The position numbers were made by a program, and so were the translations under genes. This document shows, piece after piece, positions 4,273-40,306 of a DNA stretch of 59,068 bases. Numbering within the stretch: position 1 is the stretch's first letter; each line of letters starts with the position of its first letter. Below the pieces are notes generated by a model. The model did not search any database. It was not told where the DNA came from and worked only from the letters and a program-made list of their open reading frames with translations. Origin of the DNA: an uncultured Alphaproteobacteria bacterium (GTDB lineage: Bacteria; Pseudomonadota; Alphaproteobacteria; RF32; CAG-239); assembly GCA_944391345.1 (NCBI GenBank), contig CALXTE010000010.1:1-59068 (forward strand), read 5' to 3'.

Positions 4273-4335
4273 TTGACAAAAATATTTTTTTCTGTTACTA
4301 TTAGCGGCAATTACTTATCTTATTGTGTTTATATT
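4273..4335 (+). promoter_or_regulatory. promoter and SD-less AT-rich leader (family member A)
   Basis: TTGACA at 4273-4278, 17-base spacer, TACTAT at 4296-4301. The short leader ends TTATTGTGTTTATATT directly before the ATG and has no purine-rich ribosome-binding site. Seven other promoters in this window have the same layout. Confidence 0.7.
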
Positions 4336-4917
4336 ATGAATAAAAATTTATTAAAAAAACTAATCTTTTGGAAAAAATGGGTTTTTCCGGGGATGTATTG
4401 TTATGCTGACGGAACCGTTTCATCAAAGTCCGAATTGAATGGTCAAAAGGCTTGCGGAGTGGTGGCTTTTGTGCGTAAGCATGAATATTTTGCTTTCGGT
4501 ATGGCGCAAGAGGAGCTGCCTTTTTTTTCTGATGAGCTTTCTTATGAAAAAGTGTGGGAAAAACAAAATGGGAAAGATGCGACGCATTTTATCGCTGGAA
4601 GAGCTAAAGCAGAAGGTAAACATGCCGAGGCCGTGCAATTTTGCTTGAATTATGATTGTGCCGGTTTTGAACAAGGAGCGGCTTTTTTGCCAAGCAAGTA
4701 TGAATTTTTAGCAGCGTCTCAGTTTTATGAGACAATCTCTAAAAGTTTTGAAAATATCGGAGCCCCGACGATGGATTATGGCTCAATGTATTGGACAGCT
4801 TCGGGGTTGTGTTTTTATCCGGTTTGGATGCGTGGCTATGGCTATAACTTTGGTTTTGGTTCAGTTCCGTTCAATCGAAAATGTTTGGTGCGGCCAATGT
4901 TTCGTTTTTCTTATTAA
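4336..4917 (+). CDS. lectin-fold (DUF1566-like) protein
   Basis: A 193-residue protein without a signal peptide. The C-terminal half carries the pattern of DUF1566/Lcl-type C-type-lectin-like domains: a helix with EAVQFCLNY, then GAAFLPSKYEFLA, then YWTAS, a tryptophan-containing strand, and a final RPMFRF strand. It resembles the protein at 37982-38656 (GVVGYVD, EAAEYCAEY, GEAFLPSLDEL, YWSSS in the same order) and, more weakly, the one at 27786-28328. Function unknown; related folds bind ligands or act as phase-variable display proteins. It starts at the ATG after the SD-less leader and is followed by a terminator, so it is monocistronic. Confidence 0.7.
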   Translation: MNKNLLKKLIFWKKWVFPGMYCYADGTVSSKSELNGQKACGVVAFVRKHEYFAFGMAQEELPFFSDELSYEKVWEKQNGKDATHFIAGRAKAEGKHAEAVQFCLNYDCAGFEQGAAFLPSKYEFLAASQFYETISKSFENIGAPTMDYGSMYWTASGLCFYPVWMRGYGYNFGFGSVPFNRKCLVRPMFRFSY

Positions 4918-4945
4918 AAAAAGCTGCCTTCTGGCAGCTTTTTTC
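4917..4945 (+). terminator. rho-independent terminator
   Basis: AAGCTGCC (4921-4928), TTCT loop, GGCAGCTT (4933-4940), then T run. Confidence 0.85.
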
Positions 4946-5039
4946 GTTATAATTTCACCTTATTTTGAAAATAGTCTTGAAAGCATGAGGAGATTATGAT
5001 ATATTAGATTCGTGAAGACAAGCTAAGAAAGGTGATATT

Positions 5040-6377
5040 ATGTTGAATTCGCGGAATTATGCGGTTTTGGCCGCAATGCTGTCGGCGGCCGGATTGTTGC
5101 CGATGAGCGCAATGGCAAATATTTCTTTTGCCGAGGGTGGAGAACAACTTATCAACACACTTCACACACACCTCTATTCTCCGGCCTCGGGCTTGTCTTC
5201 TTCTGATGAGATTAAACTGGCGGCGGTATGTTTTATTAATGATACAGCGGCTTGCAGTGGTGAACAGTTTGGTAATACCGAAAACAGTGGTGGAAACGGT
5301 GATTCTGGTGGAGCGCCGGATTATGATTTGAATGACGCCGAACGCTGCCGCAAAGAAGGTTATGGACTGACTTCTTGTGCTGCCGGAGAAACACCCGAAG
5401 GATTTTGTATTTATAACAGCAATTATTTTGCCCGTTGCGTATGCCCATCGGGTTACAAAACTTGTGAACCGCCTTATTATGGTGTGGGTACGGCTTGCGG
5501 TGATAAATATGCATCTTGTGAAGAAGACACCGAACGTGCCTGCAAAGAACTTGATCCCGAATTTACCGATACTTGTCAATCCGGTTGGAAAGTTGATCCA
5601 AACAATACATGTCAGTATGATAAAACTTTCGGAAAATGTTGTAACCTTTGCGAAGGCTATGATTACACCACTATTCCCGAAGGATATATCGCTGACGGCG
5701 CCGCTTGTGTCGATTGTAACGGAACAAGCAAATATAAAATCAAGATTAATCCTTGCGATGGCTTCCAAGATTGCGGCATCATGGGCGGCGATACCGGAGC
5801 TAAAACTTGTATGTCCGGCTCACAGATAAAATATGATAACTGCAAACCTTGTCCGAACTTGGGAACACTTTCGAGCTGTCCAAATCCATTCACTTGTACG
5901 TTAGAAGAATGCTCCAACCTTTATTACAAATCCGGATGCCAGTCCGGCTACGACTGGAACGCTTCTGCCCAAACTTGCACACCGCAGTGTGGCAGTGAAT
6001 ATAAATATACTTGTACCCGTTACTCTGAATATCCTATAGGCGATTCTTGTGGCGGAAAGTATAAGCAATGTTCTTGCTATTTCGATGAAACTTATTGTTA
6101 TGTATGGTCTGAAGATGGTTGTATGATATCTGGTTATCTGGGTACGGAGCTTGTTATACGAAATTTTGATGCTGTTAATAATTGTATTGCAGGCAGTAAT
6201 GGATATGCGAAAATACTCTATCGCCATGAATCTTATTGTGTGTTAAGTACTGGAGAATCTGTACATTTGGGAACATCACAGACTACTGGCGGATATTTTT
6301 CTGTTAGTAGTTGTCAGTCTCTCGCAGGTACTTCTTCTATCTGGTCTCAGGGTGGAATTTGCTGTTATTCAGACTAA
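5040..6377 (+). CDS. secreted cysteine-rich protein of unknown function
   Basis: A 445-residue protein with a clear signal peptide (ALPMSAMA-type cleavage region near residues 20-26). I count 40 cysteines, about 9% of the protein and nearly all after residue 60. They come in short spaced modules such as CVCPSGYKTC, CCNLCEGY, CKPCPNL and CSCYFDETYC. This looks like an exported, disulfide-rich protein. It has no membrane span after the signal and no recognised catalytic motif. The linker near residues 80-95 is rich in Gly, Asn and Ser. An AAAGGTG ribosome-binding site precedes the ATG. Weak resemblance to EGF/keratin-type cysteine modules is probably convergence. Confidence 0.8.
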   Translation: MLNSRNYAVLAAMLSAAGLLPMSAMANISFAEGGEQLINTLHTHLYSPASGLSSSDEIKLAAVCFINDTAACSGEQFGNTENSGGNGDSGGAPDYDLNDAERCRKEGYGLTSCAAGETPEGFCIYNSNYFARCVCPSGYKTCEPPYYGVGTACGDKYASCEEDTERACKELDPEFTDTCQSGWKVDPNNTCQYDKTFGKCCNLCEGYDYTTIPEGYIADGAACVDCNGTSKYKIKINPCDGFQDCGIMGGDTGAKTCMSGSQIKYDNCKPCPNLGTLSSCPNPFTCTLEECSNLYYKSGCQSGYDWNASAQTCTPQCGSEYKYTCTRYSEYPIGDSCGGKYKQCSCYFDETYCYVWSEDGCMISGYLGTELVIRNFDAVNNCIAGSNGYAKILYRHESYCVLSTGESVHLGTSQTTGGYFSVSSCQSLAGTSSIWSQGGICCYSD

Positions 6378-6395
6378 ATTGTGGCTGTTTTGTAC

Positions 6396-6441
6396 ATTCA
6401 CATAAAAGAAACGAAATTTTCTTCGTTTCTTTTATGTGAAT
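6396..6441. terminator. 19-bp perfect inverted repeat, probable transcription barrier
   Basis: Bases 6396-6414 are exactly complementary to 6423-6441 around an 8-base loop. It sits between two converging genes. There is no clean T run on either side, so it may be a bidirectional terminator of unusual form or an mRNA-stabilising hairpin. Confidence 0.6.
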
Positions 6442-6474
6442 TACTTTATGGAAAGTTTTGAACTTATTTTGAGG

Positions 6475-6657
6475 CTATTTTTTATTACAATTACAGCCTT
6501 TGTGGCATTTGTCGTCTTTGTGGCAATGGCAATCATCGCCGCAAGTGCAATCTTTGTCGCAATGGCAGCCTTCGCTGCACTGGTGGTTTTCGTCGCAGGT
6601 GCAGTTGTCGCCGCAAGTGCAATTCGGGTTTTTGCATTTTGGATTATTGCAACTCAT
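6475..6657 (-). CDS. metallothionein-like cysteine-rich small protein
   Basis: A 60-residue protein with 16 cysteines (27%), five histidines and many Asp, Lys and Asn, with no signal peptide and no aromatic residue. Cysteines are arranged as repeated CxC and CxxxC units (NCTCGDNCTC, DCTCGDDCHCH). This is the composition of a metal-binding metallothionein, but it is not an obvious member of the cyanobacterial SmtA family. The Shine-Dalgarno AAGGAG is excellent, which supports real translation. truA is upstream on the same strand, 77 bases away. A metal-buffering or redox role is inference. Confidence 0.75.
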   Translation of the reverse strand: MSCNNPKCKNPNCTCGDNCTCDENHQCSEGCHCDKDCTCGDDCHCHKDDKCHKGCNCNKK

Positions 6658-6734
6658 GTTTTTTCTCCTTTATTAAGTCTTTTCTAAAATCTAATTTAGT
6701 CTTTTGATTTTGGATTATCAAGGTTTTTGTGATT

Positions 6735-7475
6735 TTAGTACCCAACCTTGCTCAGATATAATCCTCCGGCAGGGGCTGTGGGGCCGGCGGCTTTGCGGTC
6801 TTTGGCCTCAAGAATGGTTTTGATAGCCTCCGGCGGAATGCGTCCTTCGCCGACAAGCTTTAAGGTGCCGACCATGTTTCTGACTTGATGATGAAGGAAA
6901 GACCGTGCCTCAACCTCAAAAATGATTTCCTCACCTTCTTGGCGGATGTCGATTTTATCCAAGGTTTTAACCGGAGATTTGGCCTGACAAGCCGATGCAC
7001 GAAAAGAACTGAAATCATGATGTCCGATTAAAAATTTTGCGCCTTCTCGCATCTTTTCAATATCCAGCGGATAAGGTGTCCACCAAACGCGGTTCTTTAG
7101 CAAGGGACTGGGGGCGCGGCGGTTGAGAATGCGGTAAATATAGGCTCTTTTTTTGGCAGAGAATCGGGCGTTAAAACTCTCATCAACGGCTTCAACCGAG
7201 AGAATCGAAACAGGGGCTTCTTCTTGCAATAAATTTCCGTTAAAGGCCTCTTTAATCTTCCATTCCGGCATTTCGCGATTGAGGTCAATATGGGCAACTT
7301 GGGCAAGCGCATGAACGCCGGCGTCGGTTCGGCCGGCAGAGGTGATTTCTTTATGTTCGCCGTTGAGCTTGTCTAAAATATCTTCAAGGTATTGTTGAAC
7401 ACTTGGGCCGTCCAACTGTCGTTGCCAGCCCAAGAGATTTGTTCCGTCATATTCAATCGTGAGTTTGTAGCGCAT
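6735..7475 (-). CDS. truA: tRNA pseudouridine(38-40) synthase TruA
   Basis: A 246-residue enzyme that isomerises uridines 38, 39 and 40 in the tRNA anticodon stem. The catalytic aspartate is in the GRTDAGVHA motif (about residues 48-56). Other family blocks are present: YDGTNLLGWQRQ at the N-terminus, FNARFSAKKRAYIYRI, and FLHHQVRNMVGTL near the C-terminus. Length is normal. It follows the oxidoreductase gene by 13 bases and is probably co-transcribed with it. Confidence 0.96.
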   Translation of the reverse strand: MRYKLTIEYDGTNLLGWQRQLDGPSVQQYLEDILDKLNGEHKEITSAGRTDAGVHALAQVAHIDLNREMPEWKIKEAFNGNLLQEEAPVSILSVEAVDESFNARFSAKKRAYIYRILNRRAPSPLLKNRVWWTPYPLDIEKMREGAKFLIGHHDFSSFRASACQAKSPVKTLDKIDIRQEGEEIIFEVEARSFLHHQVRNMVGTLKLVGEGRIPPEAIKTILEAKDRKAAGPTAPAGGLYLSKVGY

Positions 7476-7488
7476 TTCGGAAAAAAGA

Positions 7489-8505: not shown

Positions 8506-8701
8506 AGATAACCCTCAAGTAAATTGGATACAAATTACTTTTTCTCTTCTTACCTAGCACGTTTTTTTATTTTTTGCATTAAACAACTTGTTACAATTTG
8601 TTACAAAGATTTCTTCGGTCAATTATTTGAATTTTTTGCTTTATAATTTTGTTTTTTGAGGGTAACCTATAAAAAATTAGTTCTTAAAAACGGTATAAAT
8701 C
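8506..8701. other. AT-rich divergent intergenic region
   Basis: 196 bases between two divergent starts. A plus-strand TATAAT is at 8642-8646/8647, with a poor -35. The leader before the ATG at 8702 contains CTTAAAAA (8683-8690) and no Shine-Dalgarno, a distant echo of the accessory-gene leaders described elsewhere. TTGTTACA occurs twice near 8589-8604. Nothing else is evident. Confidence 0.3.
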
Positions 8702-15777: not shown

Positions 15778-16722
15778 ATGGCCGGCGTTTCTTTGATTAA
15801 AGTAAAAGCATGTGATGACGGAATGCGGTTAAACCGCTGGTTTTTGAAATATTATCCGGGGTTGTCTTTGGGGCGGTTTCAAAAACTTTTGCGTACCAAG
15901 CAAATTAAAGTTGACGGGCAACGAGCCGAGGCTTCTTTGAAGCTTGCCGTCGGACAAGAAATTCGTGTGCCGCCGCTTGATGAAGAAAAGTCTTCTGCCC
16001 AGGTTAAAAAAGATTTTGTGTCGGCAAAAGATGCTGCTTTTGCTCAGTCTTTGGTGATTTATAAAGACAAGAATATTTTGGTGCTTAACAAGCCTTCCGG
16101 TTTGGCGGTGCAAGGGGGGACAAATACTAATCGTCATATTGACGGCATGCTCGAGGCTCTGACTTTTGAAGCTGCAGAAAAGCCGAAACTGGTTCATCGA
16201 ATCGATAAAGACACCAGCGGTTTGCTCCTCTTGGCGCGAAACAGAAAATATGCCGAGCTATTGACCAAAGCTTTTCGTGAGCATCAGTTGCAAAAAACTT
16301 ATCTTGCCTTTTGTTTTGGAACACCGGCTCAGCCGCAAGGCGAGATTAAAAACAAATTGCTTAAAGTTGGGGAAAAAGTTGTGGATTCGGCGGAAGGAAA
16401 GCCTGCCGTGACGCATTATTGCGTGATTGATTCCGTCGGGCAGAAATTTTCTTTGATTGAGGCTTGTCCTTTGACCGGACGTACGCATCAAATTCGTGCA
16501 CATCTTGAATCTATCGGTTGTCCGATTGCCGGAGATGATAAATATTTTGGCGGCGAACGTAAAAAATTTTCTATTTTGGCGGATAAATTGTATCTTCATG
16601 CATATAAAATTAATCTTTCGCCCTTATATAATAAGAAAATGGAATTAACCGCGCCTTTGCCGGCGTATTTTGTTGATACACTGCAAGCTGCAGGCATTAA
16701 TGTTAAGGAGTTTACCAAATGA
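15778..16722 (+). CDS. rluC: 23S rRNA pseudouridine synthase, RluC/RluD type
   Basis: A 314-residue protein with an N-terminal S4 RNA-binding domain (SLGRFQKLLRTKQIKVDGQR) and a catalytic domain with the HRIDKDTSGLLLLAR motif holding the active aspartate (about residue 142). The GRTHQIRAHL block is also present. It isomerises specific uridines in 23S rRNA. RluC is the likeliest assignment from its place beside the ATP12-type gene in Alphaproteobacteria, but RluD cannot be excluded. Its stop overlaps the asmA start by 4 bases (ATGA). Confidence 0.9.
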   Translation: MAGVSLIKVKACDDGMRLNRWFLKYYPGLSLGRFQKLLRTKQIKVDGQRAEASLKLAVGQEIRVPPLDEEKSSAQVKKDFVSAKDAAFAQSLVIYKDKNILVLNKPSGLAVQGGTNTNRHIDGMLEALTFEAAEKPKLVHRIDKDTSGLLLLARNRKYAELLTKAFREHQLQKTYLAFCFGTPAQPQGEIKNKLLKVGEKVVDSAEGKPAVTHYCVIDSVGQKFSLIEACPLTGRTHQIRAHLESIGCPIAGDDKYFGGERKKFSILADKLYLHAYKINLSPLYNKKMELTAPLPAYFVDTLQAAGINVKEFTK

Positions 16723-20403: not shown

Positions 20404-20476
20404 AGTTAAATAATTTTAATTTCATAATTATAGTTATCCGGACTCGCTTTATACCTTAATGGACAAAATTTGTCAA
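20404..20476 (-). promoter_or_regulatory. promoter and SD-less leader (family member B)
   Basis: Reading on the minus strand, TTGACA (20476-20471), 17-base spacer, TATAAA (20453-20448). The leader ends AAATTAAAATTATTTAACT before the ATG, with no purine-rich ribosome site. The -35 is about 50 bases from the -35 of the divergent rplK promoter. Confidence 0.7.
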
Positions 20477-22980: not shown

Positions 22981-23352
22981 ATGGCCGATTTAGCCAAGTT
23001 AGTTGATGAATTGTCAGCTCTTACCGTTATGGAAGCTGCTGATCTTGCAAAAATGTTGGAAGAAAAATGGGGCGTTTCTGCCGCTGCTGCTGTTGCTGTT
23101 GCTGCCGGTGGCGCTGCCGGTGGTGCTGCTGCTGAAGAAAAAGACGAATTTACAATCGTTCTTGCTGAAGCCGGCGCTAATAAGATTAACGTTATTAAAG
23201 AAATCCGCGCTATTACCCAATTGGGCTTGAAAGAAGCTAAGGATCTCGTTGACGGTGCTCCGAAGACTGTTAAAGAAGGTGTTGCTAAGGCTGAAGCAGA
23301 AGAAATCAAGAAGAAACTTGAAGCTGCCGGCGCTAAGGTTGAATTGAAGTAA
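22981..23352 (+). CDS. rplL: 50S ribosomal protein L7/L12
   Basis: A 123-residue protein. The N-terminal dimerisation helix ([26 protein letters not shown]) is followed by an Ala/Gly-rich hinge, then the factor-binding C-terminal domain ([28 protein letters not shown]). Normal in length. GGAG lies 8 bases upstream. Unusually, rpoB does not follow: a strong terminator comes 47 bases later, and about 5.9 kb of accessory genes intervene. Confidence 0.98.
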
Positions 23353-23398: not shown

Positions 23399-23447
23399 AA
23401 ATCCCGATTATGCCTCTCCTGTTATGGCTGATCGGGATTTTTTTTGT
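23399..23447 (+). terminator. strong terminator of the rplJ-rplL operon
   Basis: AAATCCCGAT (23399-23408) pairs with ATCGGGATTT (23431-23440), then eight T. It cleanly ends the ribosomal operon, so rpoBC cannot be co-transcribed from it in the usual way. Confidence 0.85.
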
Positions 23448-23501
23448 GTTTGAAAGCTGAATGGAGATAAGTTGTAAAATATGGTGAGATTCTGTTTCTG
23501 T

Positions 23502-23880
23502 TAATTTTGTCTAAAACAATAAAGGGATGGTGAGGGGTGTGATGAGAGGGGCAGAAAAGCGATGGAGAGGACGAGTGGAAAGGGGCAGGAAAGTACTGGA
23601 GGTAAAGTGGAAAGGGATAAGAGTGTGTCTGCAAGGAGAGGTAAGAGTGAGAAGGCAATGGATGGCGATAAGAGAGTGTGAACAAGAGGCGATTGAAATC
23701 GGAAAGGATGGGTGCAAGCTGATGAGTGAAGTGAAAAAAATGGGTGGGTAAGCGGAGAGTGGTTAAACGAGGGAGAAAGGAGGAAGGTTCAGAGAGAGAA
23801 AAATTGGAGAGAGGAAAGATGAGGGGTAGGGTAAAGGAGTTAAGGCAAAAGAAAAATATAAATGAGTTGCACAAGGCAAT
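23502..23880 (+). repeat. purine-rich tract with 17-bp periodicity, type 1
   Basis: About 380 bases without a believable gene. From 23521 to 23880 I count 74 pyrimidines in 360 bases (79% purine on this strand). It opens with TAATTTTGTCTAA (23502-23514), then GGGATG 22 bases from the motif start. Internal matches occur at multiples of 17: GGGGCAGAAAAGCGATG at 23548 and GGGGCAGGAAAGTACTG at 23582 (offset 34, 13 of 17 identical); GATAAGAG...GTGTG at 23616 and 23667 (offset 51). Frames are open on both strands only because pyrimidine-containing stops are rare. A related tract follows rpoC. Confidence 0.5.
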
Positions 23881-23948
23881 GATTATTCTTTTCAATAAAG
23901 CATTTGTGGGGTAGGATTGATTGGCTATAATGAGTCAGAGGGCGTTTG

Positions 23949-24356
23949 ATGAAGGCGATAACCATTTGGCAGCCTTATGCGCAAGCGATTGCACTGGGGT
24001 TGAAAAAGTTTGAGACGCGGTCCTGGGCGACGAGATATCGCGGAAAGCTTGCCATTCATGCCTCGCATAGGCCGCTTTCTAAAGAGCGCAAGCTCTTGGC
24101 GGAAAAGTATCATATCAAAGATTGTGCCTTGGGTGAGGTGATGGTTGTGGCCGATTTGGTTGATTGTATTTTGATGACGGAAGAATTTATCCAAGCGCAG
24201 AGTGAAGCTGAGCGTGATTTCGGTGATTGGCGTGTCGGGCGGTATGCATGGCGGCTTGAAAATATTGAGGTTTTAAAAAATCCGGTTAAACTATCCGGAA
24301 AACAAGGTTTGTGGAATCTAGAGCTTCTAACCATTCATAAGAGTGTGTTATGCTGA
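23949..24356 (+). CDS. ASCH-domain protein
   Basis: A 135-residue protein with ASCH/PUA-like sequence: MKAITIWQPYAQAIALGLKKFETRSW, then YRGKLAIHASHRP, then GEVMVVADLVDC and the C-terminal YAWRLENIEVL. The WQPYA...KKFETRSW and R/H-rich strands are typical of ASCH domains, thought to bind RNA or modified nucleotides; some have ribonuclease or amidohydrolase activity. I take the ATG at 23949. No operon partner is obvious. Confidence 0.85.
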   Translation: MKAITIWQPYAQAIALGLKKFETRSWATRYRGKLAIHASHRPLSKERKLLAEKYHIKDCALGEVMVVADLVDCILMTEEFIQAQSEAERDFGDWRVGRYAWRLENIEVLKNPVKLSGKQGLWNLELLTIHKSVLC

Positions 24357-24459
24357 AAGTTTGATGCTCTTTTTTGTTTTTAAATCAGGGTAAGTCATAA
24401 AAAATTAAACAGTTTGTTTTATTTTTTATTTGTCTTGTGATTATTCAAAGGGGATTGTT

Positions 24460-24759
24460 ATGAAAAAATATTGTTTGCTTTTGGGTGTGGCGATTTTGGT
24501 TGGTGGTTGTTCTCATCTTGATAAATATATGACTGTTAGTTCAAATGCTTCGGCTCAGGAAAAGTTTCGAGCTTGTGCTTTGACCGAGGCGAATTCGATG
24601 TTACAGAACGGAACGCTCTTTACCAAAAGTTTGACCGTGACCAAAGATGAGATTGTCAGCACTTGTCTTAAAAAGATGGCGCTTGAAGCCGCCGGAATTG
24701 ATTCCGAGGCGCAGACAATCGCGACAAATGTGATTAATGCTTTGCGTGCGGCTCAATAG
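24460..24759 (+). CDS. small lipoprotein
   Basis: A 99-residue protein with a lipoprotein signal ending LVGGC (lipid-attached cysteine at about residue 17). The mature part is about 80 residues, helical, with two further cysteines (RACALTEA and STCLKK), possibly a disulfide. I know no function. AAGGGG lies 6-9 bases before the ATG at 24460, and a bidirectional terminator follows. Confidence 0.75.
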   Translation: MKKYCLLLGVAILVGGCSHLDKYMTVSSNASAQEKFRACALTEANSMLQNGTLFTKSLTVTKDEIVSTCLKKMALEAAGIDSEAQTIATNVINALRAAQ

Positions 24760-24772
24760 GTTGTTTTCTTAG

Positions 24773-24806
24773 AAAAATCCCTCATTTGGAAAAATGAGGG
24801 ATTTTT
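24773..24806. terminator. bidirectional terminator
   Basis: AAAAATCCCTCATT (24773-24786) pairs with AATGAGGGATTTTT (24793-24806) around a 6-base loop. It serves both converging genes. Confidence 0.85.
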
Positions 24807-25532
24807 CTATCTTCTGTCCGATGAAAAGTAATTTTTTAATGTTTGCCATATGTCGGGTGATGTGATGCTTCTTTTCATGGTGGTTTCAAGCTTGGTTTTA
24901 TCTTTTATTTTATTTTCCGTTTCTTTGGTAAATTCAATAATTGCTGCATTTTCTTCTTTATTTTTCCAACGTTTAAAATTTATAGCGGCGTTTTTTATGG
25001 CAAGGCTGTAAATCTCGTCTTGGTTATATTCGCGCGGAGTGCCTTCAAAGCTCTCAAGCCGGATGGTTTCATTTTCTTTTAGAAAATCGCCGATTTCGGC
25101 AAGGGATTTGGCCAGCGTCATATTATCTTCATCTTTTTGCCACGAGGTGCGGATTGTTTGGATTATTTGGGCGTAAATTTTCTTTTTATCCTCTCGCGTT
25201 TGGGCTTTTGAAAGGTCTTTGTTGAGAAAAGGTAAGAGTTTGCGCGCGTTGTCAGCACATCTCTTGTAAGATTCTTGACGCATTTGGGCGGATTTGTCCG
25301 TTCTTATTCCTGAGTATTTGTCGGCAATAAATCTATATGATTTTATTAAAAAACGGAGCTTTTCTTTGCTGAGCGGATAGTCCTTTTCAACTTGCAATAA
25401 GAAGCTGTCTAATTTATCAAGATTTTTTTCTTTTATAGCGTCGGATAGTGTGTGGTTTAAGCATGATTTTTGAAAAAGCTCGTATTTATTTTGGTCAATC
25501 GGGGATAAAAATTCTTTTGGCTTGCTTGTCAT
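24807..25532 (-). CDS. hypothetical helical protein
   Basis: A 241-residue charged, helix-rich protein (many Lys, Glu and Asp) with no signal peptide or membrane span. No family recognised. The start ATG at 25532 has AAGGG upstream; an in-frame extension to 25595 is less likely. It lies back-to-back with the small gene at 25649. Confidence 0.65.
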   Translation of the reverse strand: MTSKPKEFLSPIDQNKYELFQKSCLNHTLSDAIKEKNLDKLDSFLLQVEKDYPLSKEKLRFLIKSYRFIADKYSGIRTDKSAQMRQESYKRCADNARKLLPFLNKDLSKAQTREDKKKIYAQIIQTIRTSWQKDEDNMTLAKSLAEIGDFLKENETIRLESFEGTPREYNQDEIYSLAIKNAAINFKRWKNKEENAAIIEFTKETENKIKDKTKLETTMKRSITSPDIWQTLKNYFSSDRR

Positions 25533-25648
25533 TGTGTGGCCCTTTTTGCTTGATTTATTTGCTGTTAGTGTAGCAGAAAATTGTGTTGTATGCAAGATTG
25601 TTTTTCTTTATTATCTTGGTTGTGATTTTCATTTTGAAAGGTATGGTT

Positions 25649-25927
25649 ATGGAAAATTTTGAGGTTTTGAAAAAATTGTGGGCGGATAAACACGTTTTGG
25701 ATATTGAAATTAAAGACCATATTGATGAGCTTAAAGCCAAAGATACTTATATGAAGGCGCTGGATATTCCGAAAACCGAAAATGATTTCAGAAAAAACTT
25801 TGAAAAAGAGCTGATTGATTTGTATCTCTTAATTGCGGTTAAGTTTGCTGATGCTGAGGGACAGGAAAAAGTGCAGGCTCGTTTGAATAATGTTCTTGAA
25901 AAAATTAAAAAGCGGAATGCCGCTTGA
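25649..25927 (+). CDS. hypothetical small helical protein
   Basis: A 92-residue acidic helical protein (MENFEVLKKLWADKH...). No family recognised and no signal peptide. Three start codons lie close together; I chose ATG 25649, since AAAGG is at a good distance. It has a normal ribosome site, unlike the next two genes. Confidence 0.55.
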   Translation: MENFEVLKKLWADKHVLDIEIKDHIDELKAKDTYMKALDIPKTENDFRKNFEKELIDLYLLIAVKFADAEGQEKVQARLNNVLEKIKKRNAA

Positions 25928-25937
25928 GCTTCTGTGC

Positions 25938-26009
25938 TTGACATTGTGAACTTTTTTTCATACTTTAGTTTTGCTAATTTATTATTATTCACTTAAAAAT
26001 TATGATATT
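25938..26009 (+). promoter_or_regulatory. promoter and SD-less leader (family member C)
   Basis: TTGACA at 25938-25943, 17-base spacer, TACTTT at 25961-25966. The leader holds TTTATTATTATTCACTT (25978-25994), then AAAAATTATGATATT, then the ATG. The 17-base block is identical to the one in the leader of the minus-strand gene starting at 28328. Confidence 0.75.
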
Positions 26010-26537
26010 ATGGTTAAATTTAATTTTGGTAAAAAAAGAAAGTTTCAATCAAATGATCGAGATGCTTTCAAAGTTCATCTGGCTATGAACGCTCCGGTGG
26101 TTTATCCAGAAGATCTTTTGGATACCATTGCTTTGGCGATTTCTCTAAATTTGGGAACAGCGGTTTTGTTGTCGGCGGAAAATATTTATCTTTATCATCT
26201 TTACATGCCCGAAGATAATGAGTATTTGGGATGTTTTTATGGCGTGAAGTTTCATGAGCGCTATTATGGTAATGTGCTGGGTCGCGGTGAAATTATTTCT
26301 TTTTCGGACAGTTTGTTCTGTGTTAAGGAATCTCAAGATCTTTTGCTGCCGCTTAAGAAAATTAATGATGATTTGTATTTTCTTGCTTGTCATTATAATC
26401 ATTCCGGACAAGAAATTTCGGTTCTCGATTTTAAGAAAAGGTCTATGGGCAGTGGTGAGGAAAAACTTCTTTATCATTTTGAAAAAGATGTTTCATGTGA
26501 AGAAGCTATCCGCTTTTGTTATGATATGCTTTCTTAA
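26010..26537 (+). CDS. hypothetical protein
   Basis: A 175-residue soluble protein, basic at the N-terminus (MVKFNFGKKRKF) and mixed alpha/beta after it. No family recognised. It is expressed from the SD-less leader upstream and is followed 29 bases later by a TrpF-like barrel gene, also without a Shine-Dalgarno; the two probably form an operon. Confidence 0.65.
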   Translation: MVKFNFGKKRKFQSNDRDAFKVHLAMNAPVVYPEDLLDTIALAISLNLGTAVLLSAENIYLYHLYMPEDNEYLGCFYGVKFHERYYGNVLGRGEIISFSDSLFCVKESQDLLLPLKKINDDLYFLACHYNHSGQEISVLDFKKRSMGSGEEKLLYHFEKDVSCEEAIRFCYDMLS

Positions 26538-26566
26538 TGATTTTTATTACTTAAAATTTTTATGTT

Positions 26567-27301
26567 ATGAAGCTAACGACGATTACACTTTCCGGTGCGA
26601 ATGAGTTTACCGATATGAAGGCTTTGCTTAATCTGTGTGAGAAGTATCCCTTAGCAGAAATCGGTATTCAGGTATCTGGTGAAAAAGCAGCTTTTGGTAT
26701 GGCTCGGTATTGGTGGATTTGGGCTTTGGCTCTTTATGTGACGCCGTTTACAAAACTGGCATTGCATGTGAATAAAGACTGGGTAGAGGCCTTTTGTGCC
26801 GGAAAAATTCCTAAAGAGTTGGATACTTTTTTGAGCTTGCAGCATGATAATGGTGAGCCGATTTTTTCTCGGGTGCAGCTTAACTTCAAAATCGGGCGCG
26901 AAAAAGATTTTAATGTTCTTGTGTTGCGAAATATGATACGTAAATACAGCGCTCAACGCTTTATTTTGTCTTATAACGACAGCAACAAAGAAGTCATTCA
27001 TTATCTTTATCAAGAAGGGCTTGAGTTTGACTGTTTGTATGATTCTTCTTTCGGTGGTGGAATTCTTCCCGAAAAGCGGTTGCCTTTGATTTATCCCGAT
27101 GTATATCAAGGCTATGCCGGCGGGTTGTCTCCGCAAAATGTTTTAATCGAACTTAACAAAATTAAAAAGGTTTTGGCTGACGACGATGAATTTTATATTG
27201 ATGCGCAGAAAGGGCTGGAAGACGATGACGGTCATCTTTCACTTGAAAAATGCAATCTTTATCTTAAAAAAGCCTCAAAATGGGCGGAAAAAAATTTGTA
27301 A
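26567..27301 (+). CDS. phosphoribosylanthranilate-isomerase-like TIM-barrel protein
   Basis: A 244-residue protein. The C-terminal part has the TrpF-type pattern: FDCLYDSSFGGG, then GYAGGLSPQNV, then DEFYIDAQKGLEDDDGHLS, which match the phosphate-binding and DVSSGVE-like positions of phosphoribosylanthranilate isomerases. The N-terminal half is divergent (ARYWWIWALALYV). No other tryptophan gene is near, so it may act on another sugar phosphate. It sits in an SD-less pair with the preceding gene; its leader (TTATTACTTAAAATTTTTATGTT) repeats the leader motif even though no promoter fits in the gap. Confidence 0.5.
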   Translation: MKLTTITLSGANEFTDMKALLNLCEKYPLAEIGIQVSGEKAAFGMARYWWIWALALYVTPFTKLALHVNKDWVEAFCAGKIPKELDTFLSLQHDNGEPIFSRVQLNFKIGREKDFNVLVLRNMIRKYSAQRFILSYNDSNKEVIHYLYQEGLEFDCLYDSSFGGGILPEKRLPLIYPDVYQGYAGGLSPQNVLIELNKIKKVLADDDEFYIDAQKGLEDDDGHLSLEKCNLYLKKASKWAEKNL

Positions 27302-27304
27302 CTG

Positions 27305-27346
27305 AAAAATCCCTTGGTTGTTTTTGTCGCCAAGGGATTTTTTTTA
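27305..27346. terminator. terminator between converging genes
   Basis: AAATCCCTTGG (27307-27317) pairs with CCAAGGGATTT (27330-27340), with a T run on the right and an A run on the left. Confidence 0.8.
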
Positions 27347-27688
27347 TTTCTTGTTAATCTTGTTGCCTTGCTTATCTATGTAAAACCAGTCATCGCTGTC
27401 CCAATAATGATATTCGCCATGAGAGTCGGTTACGGCTTTTGAGCTGCCGCTTTCGGTGACTTTGGCAATGCCGTTTTCAAACGGGTAGCCATAGGCATAT
27501 TGGGGCTCAATTAAGACTTTGCCATCCGGTGTGGCATAGCCGATTTTTCCGCTTTTGGTGTCAACAATGCGGATGGTGCCGTCTTTGACATAGTCATTGC
27601 CGTTATCATATTGGTAAATGGCGTAATGTTTGTTTAAGCTGCAGGCGGCGCAAAATAGTGCTGCTAAGAGAATGATTTGTTTTTTCAT
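27344..27688 (-). CDS. WG-repeat-like lipoprotein
   Basis: A 114-residue protein with a lipoprotein signal ending FCAAC. The mature part holds a WG/beta-propeller-like repeat (KSGKIGYATPDGKVLIEPQYAYGYPFENGIAKV) and a second partial copy. WG repeats are common in secreted proteins and lipoproteins, but their role is unclear. A normal Shine-Dalgarno (AAGGA) precedes the ATG. Confidence 0.75.
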   Translation of the reverse strand: MKKQIILLAALFCAACSLNKHYAIYQYDNGNDYVKDGTIRIVDTKSGKIGYATPDGKVLIEPQYAYGYPFENGIAKVTESGSSKAVTDSHGEYHYWDSDDWFYIDKQGNKINKK

Positions 27689-27747
27689 TTTGCTATCCTT
27701 AATTATTTGAGCAATTTTATTTTATTTCATTTTTTTCTTTTTATAAA

Positions 27748-27781
27748 GAAAAAAATCAGCTTCCGGAAAGAAGCTGATTTT
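27748..27781 (-). terminator. terminator of the lectin-like gene
   Basis: AAATCAGCTT (27753-27762) pairs with AAGCTGATTT (27771-27780). On the minus strand it is followed by a T run, downstream of the gene ending at 27786. Confidence 0.75.
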
Positions 27782-27785
27782 AGGG

Positions 27786-28328
27786 TTATTCAAATTCGGC
27801 AATTTCGATGACTCTGCGGGCTTTGAATTTGCCATGGCGGTTGGCGCTGGAAAGCCCCTGTTGTGTTTTGTAAAGGAAGGCAATCCAAGCGTCATAATCA
27901 TGACATTTTCCGGTTGTCCAGTAATCACCTTTAAGCGGCTGACCATTGATTGAGGTGATAAAGCCGTTTAGCTTGTTTAAGTCTTCTTCGTTCAGATTGA
28001 TTATCTTTTTCCAAAAAAACTTTGAGCCGCTGTTACATTTTTTGCCCTTGAGAAGTGCTTTAGAGCAAAAGTTTTGCGCTTTGTTATAGCTCATTTTGTC
28101 CGGAATTTCTTTGAGTTGTATTGCACAACCGAAGATAATCACGCCCCACGGGATTTTGCCAACTAGCGGAAACCAGGAATGTGTGCCGTCCGTGTAGAGA
28201 ATTTCGTATTCCAATTTTTCGGCGGCAGTGGGAGCAATGTTCCATGCGGAAAGGATATCTTCTTTGCTTAACCCGTTTTGTTTCATAATTTCTTGAATGG
28301 CGGCAAGCGCCTGTTCTTTGGTATCCAT
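27786..28328 (-). CDS. lectin-fold (DUF1566-like) protein, divergent
   Basis: A 180-residue protein. After a helical N-terminal region, the part from about residue 58 on shows the lectin-like pattern: WGVIIFG, a helix with NKAQNFCSK, SKFFWKKI, a central GDYWTTGKCHDYDAWIAF, and a final KARRVIEI strand. These line up with the YWTAS and YWSSS cores of the proteins at 4336 and 37982. Several cysteines occur (FCSK, KKCN). The homology is weak and rests on pattern alone. It has its own promoter and SD-less leader. Confidence 0.55.
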   Translation of the reverse strand: MDTKEQALAAIQEIMKQNGLSKEDILSAWNIAPTAAEKLEYEILYTDGTHSWFPLVGKIPWGVIIFGCAIQLKEIPDKMSYNKAQNFCSKALLKGKKCNSGSKFFWKKIINLNEEDLNKLNGFITSINGQPLKGDYWTTGKCHDYDAWIAFLYKTQQGLSSANRHGKFKARRVIEIAEFE

Positions 28329-28400
28329 AATAGTATGATTTTAAAAGTGAATAATAATAAAAAACTTCTTTTGTTATAGCAGAGTCTAGTTTTTTGTCAA
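28329..28400 (-). promoter_or_regulatory. promoter and SD-less leader (family member D)
   Basis: On the minus strand, TTGACA (28400-28395), 16-base spacer, TATAAC (28378-28373). The leader holds TTTATTATTATTCACTT, then TTAAAATCATACTATT before the ATG. The 17-base block is the same as in the leader of the gene at 26010. Confidence 0.75.
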
Positions 28401-28417
28401 GTTATTTTAAAAAGCAA

Positions 28418-28441
28418 AAAAGCCGTGGGGTTAACCACGAC
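28418..28441 (-). terminator. terminator of the membrane-protein gene
   Basis: GCCGTGG (28422-28428) pairs with CCACGAC (28435-28441, one G-T pair). On the minus strand it is followed by a T run. The gene's stop codon lies in the loop. Confidence 0.7.
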
Positions 28442-28892
28442 TTTTTTTAATGATTATGCCAAGCAGAATGCCAAAAGTGCCGATGACTTCTACGACAGTG
28501 GCAATGCCGAGGATAGCTAGTCCGGCAAAAGTGTAAAGCAAGCCGGAGAATCCGCAATAGCCGAGCATATAAATGGCAATGCAGGCAGCAATAAAGAGCA
28601 GAAGGATTATGATTGTTCCTTTGACGTGCTCTTTTTTGTCTTTGGCTTTAATCAAGGCATAAGCGGCATAAACCGGCATGAACATACCGAACGCGCCGCA
28701 GAAAAATCTTATCCAATCCGCCCAATTTATTTGCGTGTTTAGACCACTCAATCCGCCGAAGATGCCTACTGCAAACAGCAAAACATAGAGGCTTATTAAT
28801 TGCATGATTGTTGTGTCTTGATTTTTTTCGATGTCGTAAGCAACTTTGCCTAGGACAAGCGCACAGATTGTGCCGATAATTGTAATTTCCAT
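28431..28892 (-). CDS. small multi-span membrane protein
   Basis: A 153-residue protein with five hydrophobic segments (about 3-16, 30-46, 62-82, 93-112, 118-148). There is no recognised family and no catalytic motif. I start it at the ATG at 28892, immediately after an SD-less leader; a longer open frame to 29129 is non-coding, because promoter elements lie within it. Function unknown. Confidence 0.65.
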   Translation of the reverse strand: MEITIIGTICALVLGKVAYDIEKNQDTTIMQLISLYVLLFAVGIFGGLSGLNTQINWADWIRFFCGAFGMFMPVYAAYALIKAKDKKEHVKGTIIILLLFIAACIAIYMLGYCGFSGLLYTFAGLAILGIATVVEVIGTFGILLGIIIKKSRG

Positions 28893-28963
28893 AATTGTAT
28901 GTTTTTTCGAGTTAATAATATAGTTTTCATGTTTCTTATAATGCGTTACGAAAATTTTGTCAA
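28893..28963 (-). promoter_or_regulatory. promoter and SD-less leader (family member E)
   Basis: On the minus strand, TTGACA (28963-28958), 17-base spacer, TATAAG (28940-28935). The leader ends TATTATTAACTC, then GAAAAAACATACAATT, before the ATG. It resembles the leader of the gene at 39611. Confidence 0.7.
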
Positions 28964-29057
28964 GTAGTTTAAGCGAGAAGTCGGCGGTTTTAAAAGAATT
29001 AAGAATCTTTCCTTGGGATAAAATTAAAAAAACTTGACTCAATTTGCAAAAAAATAC

Positions 29058-29086
29058 TTGCCATTTTAGACTTGCAGTTGTATAAG
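29058..29086 (+). promoter_or_regulatory. promoter of rpoB-rpoC
   Basis: TTGCCA at 29058-29063, 17-base spacer, TATAAG at 29081-29086. A second -35-like TTGACT lies near 29035. The leader of about 170 nt carries a hairpin CGGAG/CTCCG (near 29207-29221) next to a GC-rich segment; no known RNA family is recognised. It shows that rpoBC has its own promoter, away from rplL. Confidence 0.65.
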
Positions 29087-29265
29087 AATACGACTTTTTG
29101 TTTTTTATTATTTTGCGAATCTGCGTCAAGAGGTTTTCTTTATAGGTCAGTGGTGTGGCGCGGTTCTGTGAATAAATTTCGTTTTTTCAACATTCTGCAG
29201 GCGGGTTCGGAGCTTGGCTCCGTGTGGATTGCCGCGGATTTTTAACTTATAAAGGATGAAGGCTA

Positions 29266-37625
<8,360 letters not shown>

Positions 37626-37650
37626 TTTAGACTTTAGGTTTGATCTTTGA

Positions 37651-37682
37651 GGAGGGTAGAGAAATCTACTCTCCTTTTTTTT
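37651..37682 (+). terminator. terminator of rpoB-rpoC
   Basis: GGAGGGTAGA (37651-37660), GAAA loop, TCTACTCTCC (37665-37674), then eight T. Confidence 0.88.
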
Positions 37683-37701
37683 GAGATTTCTTTGTTGTGG
37701 C

Positions 37702-37820
37702 TAATTTTGTCTAATCGATAGTGGGGGATGATTTTGGCAAGAGGAGGAGAGCGGCAATAAGCAGGGAAAGGCAAGAGGAGTAGAGTGGCAAGAAACGGGG
37801 AATGGCAAAATTTAGGATAA
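37702..37820 (+). repeat. purine-rich tract with 17-bp tandem repeat, type 2
   Basis: It opens with TAATTTTGTCTAA (37702-37714) and GGGATG at 37725, the same head as the tract after rplL. GGCAA then recurs at 37736, 37753, 37770, 37787 and 37804, exactly 17 bases apart. Units 1 and 3 agree at 15 of 17 positions (GGCAAGAGGAGGAGAGC and GGCAAGAGGAGTAGAGT), so a 34-bp double unit is likely. Line 37741-37800 is about 85% purine. No coding sense. The rest of the gap, to 37902, holds nothing I can name. Confidence 0.6.
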
Positions 37821-37902
37821 GTATGAGAGGTTGTGGTAGTGGATGAGTATATTGCAATAATTTATATTCGAATGTTAATCGAGAGATGTTTTAGATTTTA
37901 TG

Positions 37903-37981
37903 TTGACAAAATCTGGAAAGTCTAATAGTGTTTGGGCAAGTGTTTATTATTTTAGTTTTATAATTTTAAATCTATATTGTT
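37903..37981 (+). promoter_or_regulatory. promoter and SD-less leader (family member F)
   Basis: TTGACA at 37903-37908, 17-base spacer, TAGTGT at 37926-37931. The leader contains GTTTATTATTTTAG and ends ATTTTAAATCTATATTGTT before the ATG, with no ribosome-binding site. Confidence 0.65.
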
Positions 37982-38656
37982 ATGGAAAGACAAGAGAAAA
38001 AATCCAAAAAAGAAATTTGGAAGGAATTTTCTTTGGAATTTCTGTCGTTATGCAGTGAGCTGTGGTGTTGGTGTTTTCCAAAGGGAACAAATTTTGAGCC
38101 CAAAGGGAAAATTCAGAAAAAGAAAGTCGGGATGTTTTATTATGCCGAAGACAAGTTGTTTTCTGAAGAACTCATTCCGAACAAAACTGTGACCGGTGTT
38201 GTGGGGTATGTAGATAAGACTGGTGAGCATGGTTTGATTGTGCTTTTGCATCAAAAGCTGTTGTTTTGGGCCAATGCTGGTTTGTTTTTTGATATGCCAA
38301 ATGGATTGAGCGGAAAAGAAAATACCTGTTTAATTTTAAATGTGGCTAAAGATAACTGGATAACAGCAGAGGCAGCGGAGTATTGTGCAGAATACGCTGT
38401 TGATGGTGTTAAAGCAGGAGAAGCATTTTTACCAAGTCTTGATGAGCTTAAAAGTTTTTATGGCAATAAGATTCTTATTAATGCAAAATTGGCTTTAATA
38501 AAAGGTGCTGATTTATTTAGTGACTGGTACTATTGGTCTTCTTCTGAATTTTCTGTTGATTATGCTTGGTATCAATATTTTAGTACTGGTTATGTTGGTA
38601 AAAATCATCATAGAAAAGACAGTGGTGGTTATGTTTGTCCTGTTATAGAATTTTAA
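37982..38656 (+). CDS. lectin-fold (DUF1566-like) protein
   Basis: A 224-residue protein. After a charged helical start, it has GVVGYVDKTGEHGLIV, a helix ITAEAAEYCAEYAV, AGEAFLPSLDELKSF, and YYWSSSEFSVDYAWYQYF near the C-terminus, closing with GGYVCPVIEF. This is the classic DUF1566/Lcl pattern, clearer than in its relatives at 4336 and 28328. The C-terminal half is rich in Tyr, Asn, Asp, His and Ser, as in ligand-binding lectin folds. Function unknown; no signal peptide, so a cytoplasmic or non-classical exported role. Confidence 0.75.
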   Translation: MERQEKKSKKEIWKEFSLEFLSLCSELWCWCFPKGTNFEPKGKIQKKKVGMFYYAEDKLFSEELIPNKTVTGVVGYVDKTGEHGLIVLLHQKLLFWANAGLFFDMPNGLSGKENTCLILNVAKDNWITAEAAEYCAEYAVDGVKAGEAFLPSLDELKSFYGNKILINAKLALIKGADLFSDWYYWSSSEFSVDYAWYQYFSTGYVGKNHHRKDSGGYVCPVIEF

Positions 38657-38673
38657 TTATTTATTTAATTTTG

Positions 38674-38707
38674 TATCCGGTTGGCGTATTGCCGCCGGAT
38701 TTTTTTG
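38674..38707 (+). terminator. rho-independent terminator
   Basis: ATCCGG (38675-38680) pairs with CCGGAT (38695-38700), with an inner GGC/GCC stem, then TTTTTTT. The T run leads straight into the next promoter. Confidence 0.8.
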
Positions 38708-38777
38708 TTGACAAAAAAATAAAGTTTTGTACTATGAGGGTAATTAACTATTATTGTTTCACTAAAAATTATTTTAT
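38708..38777 (+). promoter_or_regulatory. promoter and SD-less leader (family member G)
   Basis: TTGACA at 38708-38713, 16-base spacer, TACTAT at 38730-38735. The leader reads TAACTATTATTGTTTCACT, then AAAAATTATTTTAT, then the ATG. Confidence 0.75.
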
Positions 38778-39059
38778 ATGAATATTTATTATGTGTTGAT
38801 TGCCGTGGTTGTTATTGCGGCTGTCGTTATTTCGCTTTTGTGTGTCGCGTTAAACAAAGCTAAGCGTGATTTGAAGACAAGTAAAGGGATGTTCGATGTG
38901 CCTCTTCTTAAAATTGGGACACAAATGTGCGGTGAGATTCTTAACGATTTACAAGGAGATATTGGTTATCGCGAGGTCAATGGTTTGGGCGATGATGAGG
39001 AAACCGTTAATAAGAAAAACTTGGCACGGAAGATAAACTTTACGTTTTTTGCCGATTAG
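38778..39059 (+). CDS. small single-span membrane protein
   Basis: A 93-residue protein with one N-terminal transmembrane helix (about residues 4-27) and a soluble, helical, cytoplasmic-side tail. No family recognised. It is first of a pair with the membrane protein at 39095, 35 bases on; both are SD-less. Confidence 0.6.
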   Translation: MNIYYVLIAVVVIAAVVISLLCVALNKAKRDLKTSKGMFDVPLLKIGTQMCGEILNDLQGDIGYREVNGLGDDEETVNKKNLARKINFTFFAD

Positions 39060-39094
39060 TGAATTCTGAGTGTTTAACTTAAAATTTTTTGGTT

Positions 39095-39454
39095 ATGACA
39101 GAATTTTATTTGGTATTGCTTGGCTGTGCTTTCTTTATTGTTTTTTTTATTGTTGGTTGGGCGATAGATAATTATCGTGAACTTGTAAGGCTTAGAAAAG
39201 CTTATGACGCCAAAGCTGAACAATGCGTGGTTACCCATGAGGCGATGTTGACCTTAATTCGAGAGTTTACGCGAGAAGAACTGGAGCTTTATTTGAAAGA
39301 TTATTCCGAGAGGCTTTGTGAATTGTATCCGGAGCACAATGGAAATAAGACACTCATTAAAATCTATGAGCTTTTGGTTGAGGAAATAGAGTTACGTCTT
39401 TCAAGTCTTGATGAAGACGGGCGTTCTTCCGGTGGCATTACGGTCGAAGCGTGA
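39095..39454 (+). CDS. small single-span membrane protein
   Basis: A 119-residue protein with an N-terminal transmembrane helix (about 4-25) followed by a long charged coiled-coil-like region (ELELYLKDYSERLCELY...). No family recognised. The start ATG at 39095 is preceded by TTTAACTTAAAATTTTTTGGTT, the leader motif without a promoter. Probably forms a membrane complex with the preceding product; that is inference. Confidence 0.6.
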   Translation: MTEFYLVLLGCAFFIVFFIVGWAIDNYRELVRLRKAYDAKAEQCVVTHEAMLTLIREFTREELELYLKDYSERLCELYPEHNGNKTLIKIYELLVEEIELRLSSLDEDGRSSGGITVEA

Positions 39455-39455
39455 T

Positions 39456-39485
39456 TAAGTTTGAAAAGGTCGGAAACTTTTTTGT
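39456..39485 (+). terminator. probable terminator
   Basis: AAGTTT (39457-39462) pairs with AAACTT (39474-39479), then a T run. The stem is weak. Confidence 0.45.
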
Positions 39486-39526
39486 TTAAAACCGGCGGAT
39501 TACATACGTTTTGCGCAAATATTTTA

Positions 39527-39610
39527 CTTGATTCTTTATCTCCTTTGTTATACAACGTGATTACTTACTTATAATTAATCTTATTATTAACTCTTAAAAA
39601 AAATAATATT
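39527..39610 (+). promoter_or_regulatory. promoter and SD-less leader (family member H)
   Basis: TATACA at 39549-39554 with a weak -35 (CTTGAT, 39527-39532, 16-base spacer). The long leader ends TTATTATTAACTC, then TTAAAAAAAATAATATT, before the ATG. The weaker -35 makes this the least certain promoter of the set. Confidence 0.5.
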
Positions 39611-40306
39611 ATGTGTAAACAAGAAAAGTTTGAGGAACTTTCAACCAAATATGGTGGGGAGTTTGCCACGTTGATGAAACATTCGCGCTACAATGGTCCG
39701 GTTATCTTTTTTGATTTGCGCCTTTCTCACTTGGAAGCTTTGAAAATTCCTAATTCCGAAGAAAAAATTATGCCTTTGATCGAAATGCTTGATTTTTTTA
39801 TTCGCGGTTACGAACAAATGAACAGCTTTATCCTTTGTGATGATGTTTCTTTGTGCCGGTTTTATTCAACAAACCAGATTTGCAAATTGTTGAGCGCAAA
39901 GAATCCAAAGCCCGAATTTATGTGGCACAATATTTTTCCGATGTCGGAATTTCATAGTTTTTTGCCCAGTGAGGTTCATATGAATTTTCCTTTGGCGGAG
40001 TGGTATGCCTGTCACGGAAATGCCTTTTCCTGTATGCGCTTTAAGGAGATTCCTAAGTCTTATTTCAAGTATGGGACGGAAATCGTCGGTGTAGAAAATT
40101 ATCTGCCGGAGATTATGTATTTTCTGATGGAAAATATCAAAAACGGCTATTATCCTCACGTGATTTATCCCTGTTTGTATAAGACAGAGCGTGCTGTTCC
40201 CGGTTTTCAGCCAAAGGTTGTGTATTGGCATAGGGATATTCAACCGATGGATTGGGAAGAAGACAAAGCTCCTGAAAAAGTTAGGTATCCACATGCAACA
40301 CATTAA
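39611..40306 (+). CDS. hypothetical protein
   Basis: A 231-residue soluble protein with many aromatic residues and His/Cys (YACHGNAFSCMRF; YPCLYKTERAVPGF). No family recognised and no signal peptide. Possible mixed alpha/beta fold. It is monocistronic, from an SD-less leader, and ends at a bidirectional terminator before ftsZ. Confidence 0.6.
   Translation: MCKQEKFEELSTKYGGEFATLMKHSRYNGPVIFFDLRLSHLEALKIPNSEEKIMPLIEMLDFFIRGYEQMNSFILCDDVSLCRFYSTNQICKLLSAKNPKPEFMWHNIFPMSEFHSFLPSEVHMNFPLAEWYACHGNAFSCMRFKEIPKSYFKYGTEIVGVENYLPEIMYFLMENIKNGYYPHVIYPCLYKTERAVPGFQPKVVYWHRDIQPMDWEEDKAPEKVRYPHATH

Follow-up and report, generated by a model that had tools for sequence, protein, structure and literature searches.

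A stretch of 59,068 nucleotides (nt) from an uncultured alphaproteobacterium, hereafter the window, carries ten genes that start without a Shine-Dalgarno (SD) site and share an A+T-rich leader before the ATG, and a class of such genes extends through the genome. The leaders are probably the 5' untranslated regions of a class whose translation is initiated independently of SD pairing, probably with assistance from ribosomal protein S1, and which is set in a standard expression module. The class is distinguished by leader sequence, placement relative to the ATG, SD absence, G depletion, weak folding, near-absence of the motif from SD genes, promoter geometry and recurrence in relatives. Its refined consensus comprises TTATTATT (or TTATTGTnT), AACT, AAAA at -14 to -11, T-7, A-6, A-3, TT and ATG, with little G. 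No report of this leader was found among the papers listed by motif-string and topic searches of an open-licence library.

The ten leaders, first proposed in a sequence-only reading of the window, were all confirmed in the sequence; genes are named here by their start positions. In none did the SD window (-18 to -4) contain a run of four or more bases from AAGGAGGT, in agreement with that reading. An SD site at the true start codon was looked for in all ten genes and found at none of their own starts; in five, a different in-frame start within 60 codons has an SD-like 4- or 5-mer, always at least 17 codons into the gene. Genes 4336, 20403 and 37982 match the motif only partly, as had been noted. 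The 17-base identity between the leaders of 26010 and 28328 (TTTATTATTATTCACTT) is real, and the accompanying description of unrelated proteins was corrected in that 28328 and 37982 have kin elsewhere in the genome, kin that also carry such leaders.

For a hold-out test, a position matrix was built from seven window leaders and applied to 800 kb from other parts of the genome. At a score of at least 10, it matched 21 of 1130 first-ATG open reading frames (ORFs) of 80 or more amino acids, compared with 1 of 1130 shuffled leaders and, among ORFs shorter than 40 amino acids, 21 of 10464 first ATGs (Fisher p 4e-11). With a score of at least 12, the respective matches were 12, 1 and 7. The pattern TTATTATTN{12,24}ATTATG occurred 25 times in the genome and its reversed version once. 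The matrix scan of this genome and its relatives thus found the motif again outside the window and in the genus, and far less often in shuffled leaders and short ORFs, instead of equally frequently everywhere.

An expectation-maximization (EM) model was then computed over 769 candidate genes with ATG starts. Scores of at least 14 were reached by 55 genes versus 7 shuffled ones, and scores of at least 10 by 113 versus 33, so the lower part of the EM list is mixed. The 49 cleanest genes were selected by a score of at least 12, no SD of four or more bases, and A+T of at least 80% in the last 24 nt; 28892 was dropped by these limits and 4336 lies below the list. Promoter, folding and composition counts refer to the 33 of these 49 genes with a score of at least 15 (32 in the promoter count, as one has no upstream neighbour). 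The logo of the 49 genes shows a T-rich block around TTATTATT, followed by AACT or AATT, A at 0.69–0.86 from -14 to -11, T-7 at 0.73, A-6 at 0.69, A-3 at 0.71, T-2 at 0.88 and T-1 at 0.98, with G at 0–0.06 from -19 to -7. Positions -7 and -6 were outside the EM model and hence free of its selection. The model let the gap between AAAA and ATT vary from 2 to 11, and a length of 7 predominated (0.56). Some genes have TTATTGTnT as the first block, with about four additional bases ahead of AACT.

The window (contig C10) belongs to a genome of 1.63 Mb in 44 contigs, and the best named matches of its rpoB (88, 85 and 83% identical) are all uncultured alphaproteobacterial metagenome-assembled genomes (MAGs). 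The host is probably a gut dweller, judging by a rabbit sample name ('Lapin') among these matches and by the usual provenance of such MAG sets. Its core genes start via SD sites, in contrast to the motif class and as the sequence-only reading had held. Strict SD sites (AGGA, GGAG or GAGG) precede 142 of 295 called genes, and G/A peaks at -11 in the average leader; the genome-wide SD absence typical of Bacteroidota does not apply here. The 16S gene of the host was not found in its assembly; the anti-SD was instead read from family 16S genes, and CCTCCTTT was intact at the end (before the flank) of all three complete ones. The genome encodes one S1 protein (562 amino acids, six S1 repeats) and one bS21, and a search for an extra gene of either found none beyond these.

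The two start classes differ in several respects. TTATTATT occurs once before 302 strong-SD genes, where TAACT is found 7 times versus 6.2 expected. The minimum free energy over -30 to +20 was -1.5 kcal/mol for the 33 motif genes and -4.2 kcal/mol for the 302 SD genes, i.e., the motif leaders fold weakly. G+C was 0.387 in the motif genes compared with 0.422 in 222 length-matched SD genes (p 2e-6), and codon fit was weaker in the motif genes (p 0.003).

Most motif genes also share a promoter geometry. Among genes with 60 or more nt of upstream space, TTGAC was present in the 110 nt before the ATG in 22 of 29 motif genes and 18 of 169 SD genes (p 1e-12), nearly always at -65 to -80 (about 70 bases before the ATG) in the former and scattered in the latter. 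Alignment of 23 promoters yielded TTGACA(A) followed by a TAnnnT-like box. In a wider check, which covered up to 200 nt in genes with at least 100 nt of upstream space, TTGAC was found in 12 of 17 motif genes and 18 of 113 SD genes, and TTG[AC][CT]N-15..18-TAnnnT in 7 of 17 and 22 of 113, respectively. Given this near-fixed distance, a typical motif gene has a promoter followed by a leader of about 35 nt. The predicted -10 box ends about 42 nt before the ATG in most motif genes, which speaks against leaderless mRNA. Of the eight promoters originally suggested in the window, exact TTGACA within 80 nt upstream bears out those of seven of the ten genes (4336, 20403, 26010, 28328, 28892, 37982 and 38778), but 39611 has only a weak -35 (Table 1). 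The claim that two genes lie within operons was upheld: 26567 and 39095, which start 29 and 35 nt past the preceding same-strand gene, have no TTGAC in the 110 nt upstream and possess the leader only. A recurring TTTTGTCTA element, possibly an operator, was observed in the promoters of motif genes L005 18401, L009 (minus strand, near 16350), L035 8508 and L020 17202; it is twice fused to TTGAC, also occurs in loci L343 and L341 of two congeners, and was seen three times elsewhere.

It could be argued that TTATTATT is itself a -10 box or operator and thus a DNA element outside the mRNA, as TATTAT resembles a -10 box and the distance from the -35 to the ATG is nearly fixed. This is extremely improbable, since the -35 and -10 elements of most genes are situated about 12 nt farther upstream, the box positions are tied to the ATG, and two motif genes have no room for a promoter. 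Action at the mRNA level, as first suggested, is most likely in view of the anchoring to the start codon, the retention in two operon positions lacking TTGAC, and the weak folding.

Table 1. Leaders and associated promoters of the ten motif genes in the window.
Feature	Coordinates	Strand	Remarks
TTGACA promoter (4273) and partial leader, gene 4336	4273..4335	+	Below score limit 10 in EM list
TTGACA promoter (-73) and partial leader, gene 20403	20404..20476	-	EM score 17.1
TTGACA promoter (25938, -72) and full leader TTATTATTCACTTAAAAATTATGATATT, gene 26010	25938..26009	+	EM score 25.9
Leader of gene 26567, no TTGAC, 29 nt past upstream gene	26538..26566	+	EM score 18.3
TTGACA promoter (-72) and full leader, gene 28328	28329..28400	-	EM score 23.5
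TTGACA promoter (-71) and full leader, gene 28892	28893..28963	-	EM score 23.3; outside the 49-gene set by the A+T limit
TTGACA promoter (-79) and partial leader, gene 37982	37903..37981	+	EM score 16.2
TTGACA promoter (-70) and leader, gene 38778	38708..38777	+	EM score 18.3
Leader of gene 39095, no TTGAC, 35 nt past upstream gene	39060..39094	+	EM score 20.4
Weak promoter (TTATAC/TATAAT) and full leader TTATTATTAACTCTTAAAAAAAATAATATT, gene 39611	39548..39610	+	EM score 24.9

Under SD-independent initiation, transcripts would begin about 35 nt before the ATG, just upstream of TTATTATT, as predicted from the promoter. The U-rich TTATTATT/TTATTGTnT-AACT block may be the landing site of S1, and A-14 to A-11, A-6 and A-3 would lie within the mRNA channel, as in ribosomes of Bacteroidota; the block and the A positions would jointly stand in for SD pairing. 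By pairing the leader with one standard promoter, most motif genes would form a compact expression module for accessory genes, and core genes would retain SD sites and other promoters. In Flavobacterium, A at -3, -6, -12 and -13 (run -14 to -11) are positive determinants of SD-free initiation according to the pertinent passages of PMC6847099, and A prevails at all four positions in our logo. SD-free initiation in Bacteroidota, as these passages describe it for Flavobacterium johnsoniae, further shares with the motif leaders the lack of an SD, the A at -14 to -11, -6 and -3, and weak structure. In contrast, the present case concerns a single gene class in an SD-using proteobacterium with an intact family anti-SD, and includes the added TTATTATT-AACT block, TT before the ATG, and TTGACA promoters.

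A second likeness is to the T7 gene 10 epsilon enhancer (UUAACUUUAA), which, as presented in the enhancer passages of PMC8748333, has the TTGTTTAACT core at a similar distance from the ATG, a U-rich 5' flank and an A-rich 3' flank. The corresponding upstream core is found in the motif leaders as AACT/TAACT in the same region, the exact 10-mer not being required, and TTGTTTAACTTTAA is present in the T7 gene 10 leader ahead of its SD. Whereas epsilon precedes this strong SD (GGAG), the motif leaders have none, and AAAA occupies its place. Epsilon was first explained by pairing with 16S positions 458–466; mutation gave no support and S1 was proposed instead, according to PMC8748333, whose reference list also cites work on epsilon as an initiator. 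Pairing with helix 17 was likewise rejected here, as E. coli 16S has AAAGTTAA at 459 and three family 16S genes lack it there. Pairing elsewhere in 16S is unsupported: with 25 leaders per 16S gene, the mean best duplex was -9.8, -10.7 and -10.2 for L184, L185 and L186, compared with -9.3, -9.5 and -9.9 for shuffled leaders. The largest difference, about 1 kcal for L185, involves one stretch in 11 of 25 leaders, which is not so in L184 or L186, and the longest complement to the family 16S is 6–7 nt, at varying places.

Similar leaders were found in viral sequences. In IMG/VR, the strict motif occurred 13 times, once per contig, with 12 instances before ORFs of at least 74 amino acids and two pairs alike, and scrambled versions occurred once and not at all. 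TTGTTTAACTnnAAA..ATTATG matched 113 loci, 69 of them distinct, 46 of which lead ORFs of 60 or more amino acids or open ones; its scrambled version matched 17 loci, 6 leading such ORFs (p 0.026 on the ORF fraction). What these SD-less, AT-rich phage leaders have in common with the motif is TTGTTTAACTnnAAA..ATTATG or TTATTATTAACTnAAAA..ATTATG before ORFs. Overlap with a Bacteroidota -7 promoter (TAnnTTTG) accounts for only 10 of the 69 distinct loci. A bulk phage origin of the motif genes is not supported, given only 13 strict matches in the viral collection and six PHROG families over 40 motif proteins.

These controls bear on the view that the leaders are merely A+T-rich, open and unstructured 5' ends in an A+T-rich genome, with no specific recognition. 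Motif leaders are indeed unstructured, and weaker structure around the start is recorded for non-SD genes of many species in the relevant parts of PMC5397173. Nevertheless, shuffling lowers the leader scores greatly, viral patterns scrambled at equal composition gave 1, 0 and 17 matches versus 13 and 113, and the motif has fixed positions and a specific AACT, which makes this view very unlikely.

A regulon would be another explanation, in which TTATTATT-AACT-AAAA is the target of a small RNA or an RNA-binding protein that turns the accessory genes on or off jointly. In its favour, a generic U-rich S1 site would not require anything as specific as AACT, the promoter geometry is common to the genes, and the class is mostly devoid of Pfam families. 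Searches with 40 motif proteins (38 of the 49 plus 4336 and 28892) against Pfam, PHROGs and PADLOC matched 7 Pfam families, HD, HAD and cytidylyltransferase enzymes among them, compared with 63 over 40 random SD proteins (figures being families matched, not proteins with a match), and no PADLOC defence family. The product of 37982 matches Lcl_C, under that family's curated cut-off, and that of 28328 is present in 4 of 33 family genomes; the label 'accessory' derives from the Pfam misses and this single family search. Conversely, no Rfam family reached gathering score in the window, and the 21 TTATTATT[AC]A[CT] matches, obtained from 859 of 1635 kb, include no evident antisense RNA gene, although 8–10 nt of pairing could escape. 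Sixteen of the 21 lead an ORF of at least 50 amino acids or an open one; the other five were judged by eye only. The similar leader before ORFs in unrelated phages, in turn, argues for a general ribosomal preference. We therefore regard a regulon as unlikely: a dedicated regulator is not needed to account for the data, and support for a regulator or small RNA is so far lacking. S1 recognition appears the most plausible of the three proposals of the sequence-only reading. Its 'undescribed co-regulated set' accordingly stands as a genome-wide SD-less class with a common leader but not as co-regulation, since its promoters are ordinary TTGACA/TAnnnT ones and no regulator was found.

The motif recurs across the genus and, more weakly, in the family. 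TTATTATTN{12,24}ATTATG was found 4–24 times per genome in 11 congeners (controls 0–2) and 0–11 times in 29 other family genomes (controls 0–6); elsewhere in the class, counts were mostly at control level, with few small excesses. At a score of at least 8, the host-genome matrix matched 7 of 1250 long-ORF ATGs versus 0 of 4580 short ones in a congener, and 9 of 1238 versus 1 of 4026 in another genus; on 72 loci of more distant alphaproteobacteria, it matched 0 of 14975 and 1 of 21147. A tighter class-wide scan gave one match in the host genome, one or two in 9 of 237 outside-family genomes, and reversed-control matches in 7 of 237, the pattern being too tight to inform. TTGAC was located at -70, -74 and -82 in three of five congener matches, and in those from the other genus at -67 in three of eight, at -84 and -46 in one each, and in none of the remaining three. 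Within the host genome, the 28328 product has five paralogues, of which four (31–38% identical) keep promoter and leader, one of them with a stop inside the matched stretch. For the fifth, the start finder gave nothing, as for 7 of all 17 loci. Several 28328 relatives in other species have leaders that fit the motif poorly.

Small proteins with a Y.DG-like core form diverged families with several genomic copies (window 4336, 27786-28328 and 37982; L011 18645, L029 10659, L030 15694 and L019 3905). BLAST links the 28328 relatives and the 37982/L019 3905 pair, and the rest were grouped by eye; one matches Lcl_C below cut-off. On contig C23, L040 2122 (-) and 10309 (+) have the same gene start and an identical leader in opposite orientations, in an apparent inverted duplication. 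L016 2560 and L035 1021, on different contigs, have near-identical leaders and alike N-termini. In the window, rplL (22981–23352) and rpoB (29266), normally neighbours, are separated by about 6 kb (23400–29250) in which accessory genes occupy both strands; L048, a more distant relative, has an rplL-like ORF (9496) that ends just before rpoB (10001).

The leaders might also have been acquired together with their genes from Bacteroidota or Bacteroidota phages, which have similar-looking starts, and be merely tolerated. The lower G+C and weaker codon fit of the motif genes would agree with this, as would a Bacteroides plasmid on which A-12 to A-14 and T-1 prevail and AACT..AAA occurs in 5 of 37 versus 0.2 expected, and a leader-bearing phage gene whose nearest named relative, 41% identical, is a flavobacterial phage protein. 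However, the same plasmid is low in A-3 (0.22) and A-6 (0.32) and has TTATTATT in 0 of 37, so that the signal is shared in part, not as a whole, with SD-free Bacteroidota. Moreover, this named flavobacterial phage itself has TTATTATT in 0 of 45 and no excess of TTAACT (1 versus 1.0 expected) or AACT..AAA (0 versus 1.2), and one motif protein has no plasmid match. The promoters are TTGACA/TAnnnT and not of the Bacteroidota type, TAnnTTTG, and the leader recurs across family genera and in diverged paralogues. Import is thus decidedly unlikely.

Some observations weigh against S1-assisted, SD-independent initiation. TTAAC and AACTT are mildly raised before SD genes (15 versus 6.4 and 15 versus 8.1 expected), and the AACT part is thus perhaps not as strictly confined to the class as TTATTATT. 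According to the enhancer passages of PMC8748333, Agrobacterium, another alphaproteobacterium, could do without the T7 enhancer ahead of an SD. Only 2 of 32 motif genes are operon-internal and promoterless, so the mRNA-level argument rests mainly on ATG anchoring. Finally, the EM list is contaminated by SD genes below a score of about 15, some lowest-scoring members of the 49-gene logo look like wrong starts, and this logo was chosen on the motif, which renders its boxes partly circular, except for -7, -6 and the hold-out test.

A broader proposal holds that the leader is an intrinsic, sequence-specific, SD-independent ribosomal start signal (U-rich, UUUAACU, A at -14 to -11, A-6 and A-3), of which T7 epsilon is an SD-coupled relic, with which an alphaproteobacterial family marks its accessory genes, and which AT-rich phages of other hosts also use. 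Under this proposal, which we advance tentatively and as rather unlikely, the cell could adjust the synthesis of core and accessory proteins independently, for instance via S1 availability. How start codons are chosen without an SD is a long-standing question, and this genome, from a family with an intact anti-SD, combines two start classes. The SD-less class has a compact, mutable consensus, through which the old epsilon enhancer would become testable as an initiation signal in itself. The motif could also help gene callers place starts in uncultured bacteria and would single out little-studied genes that share one expression module.

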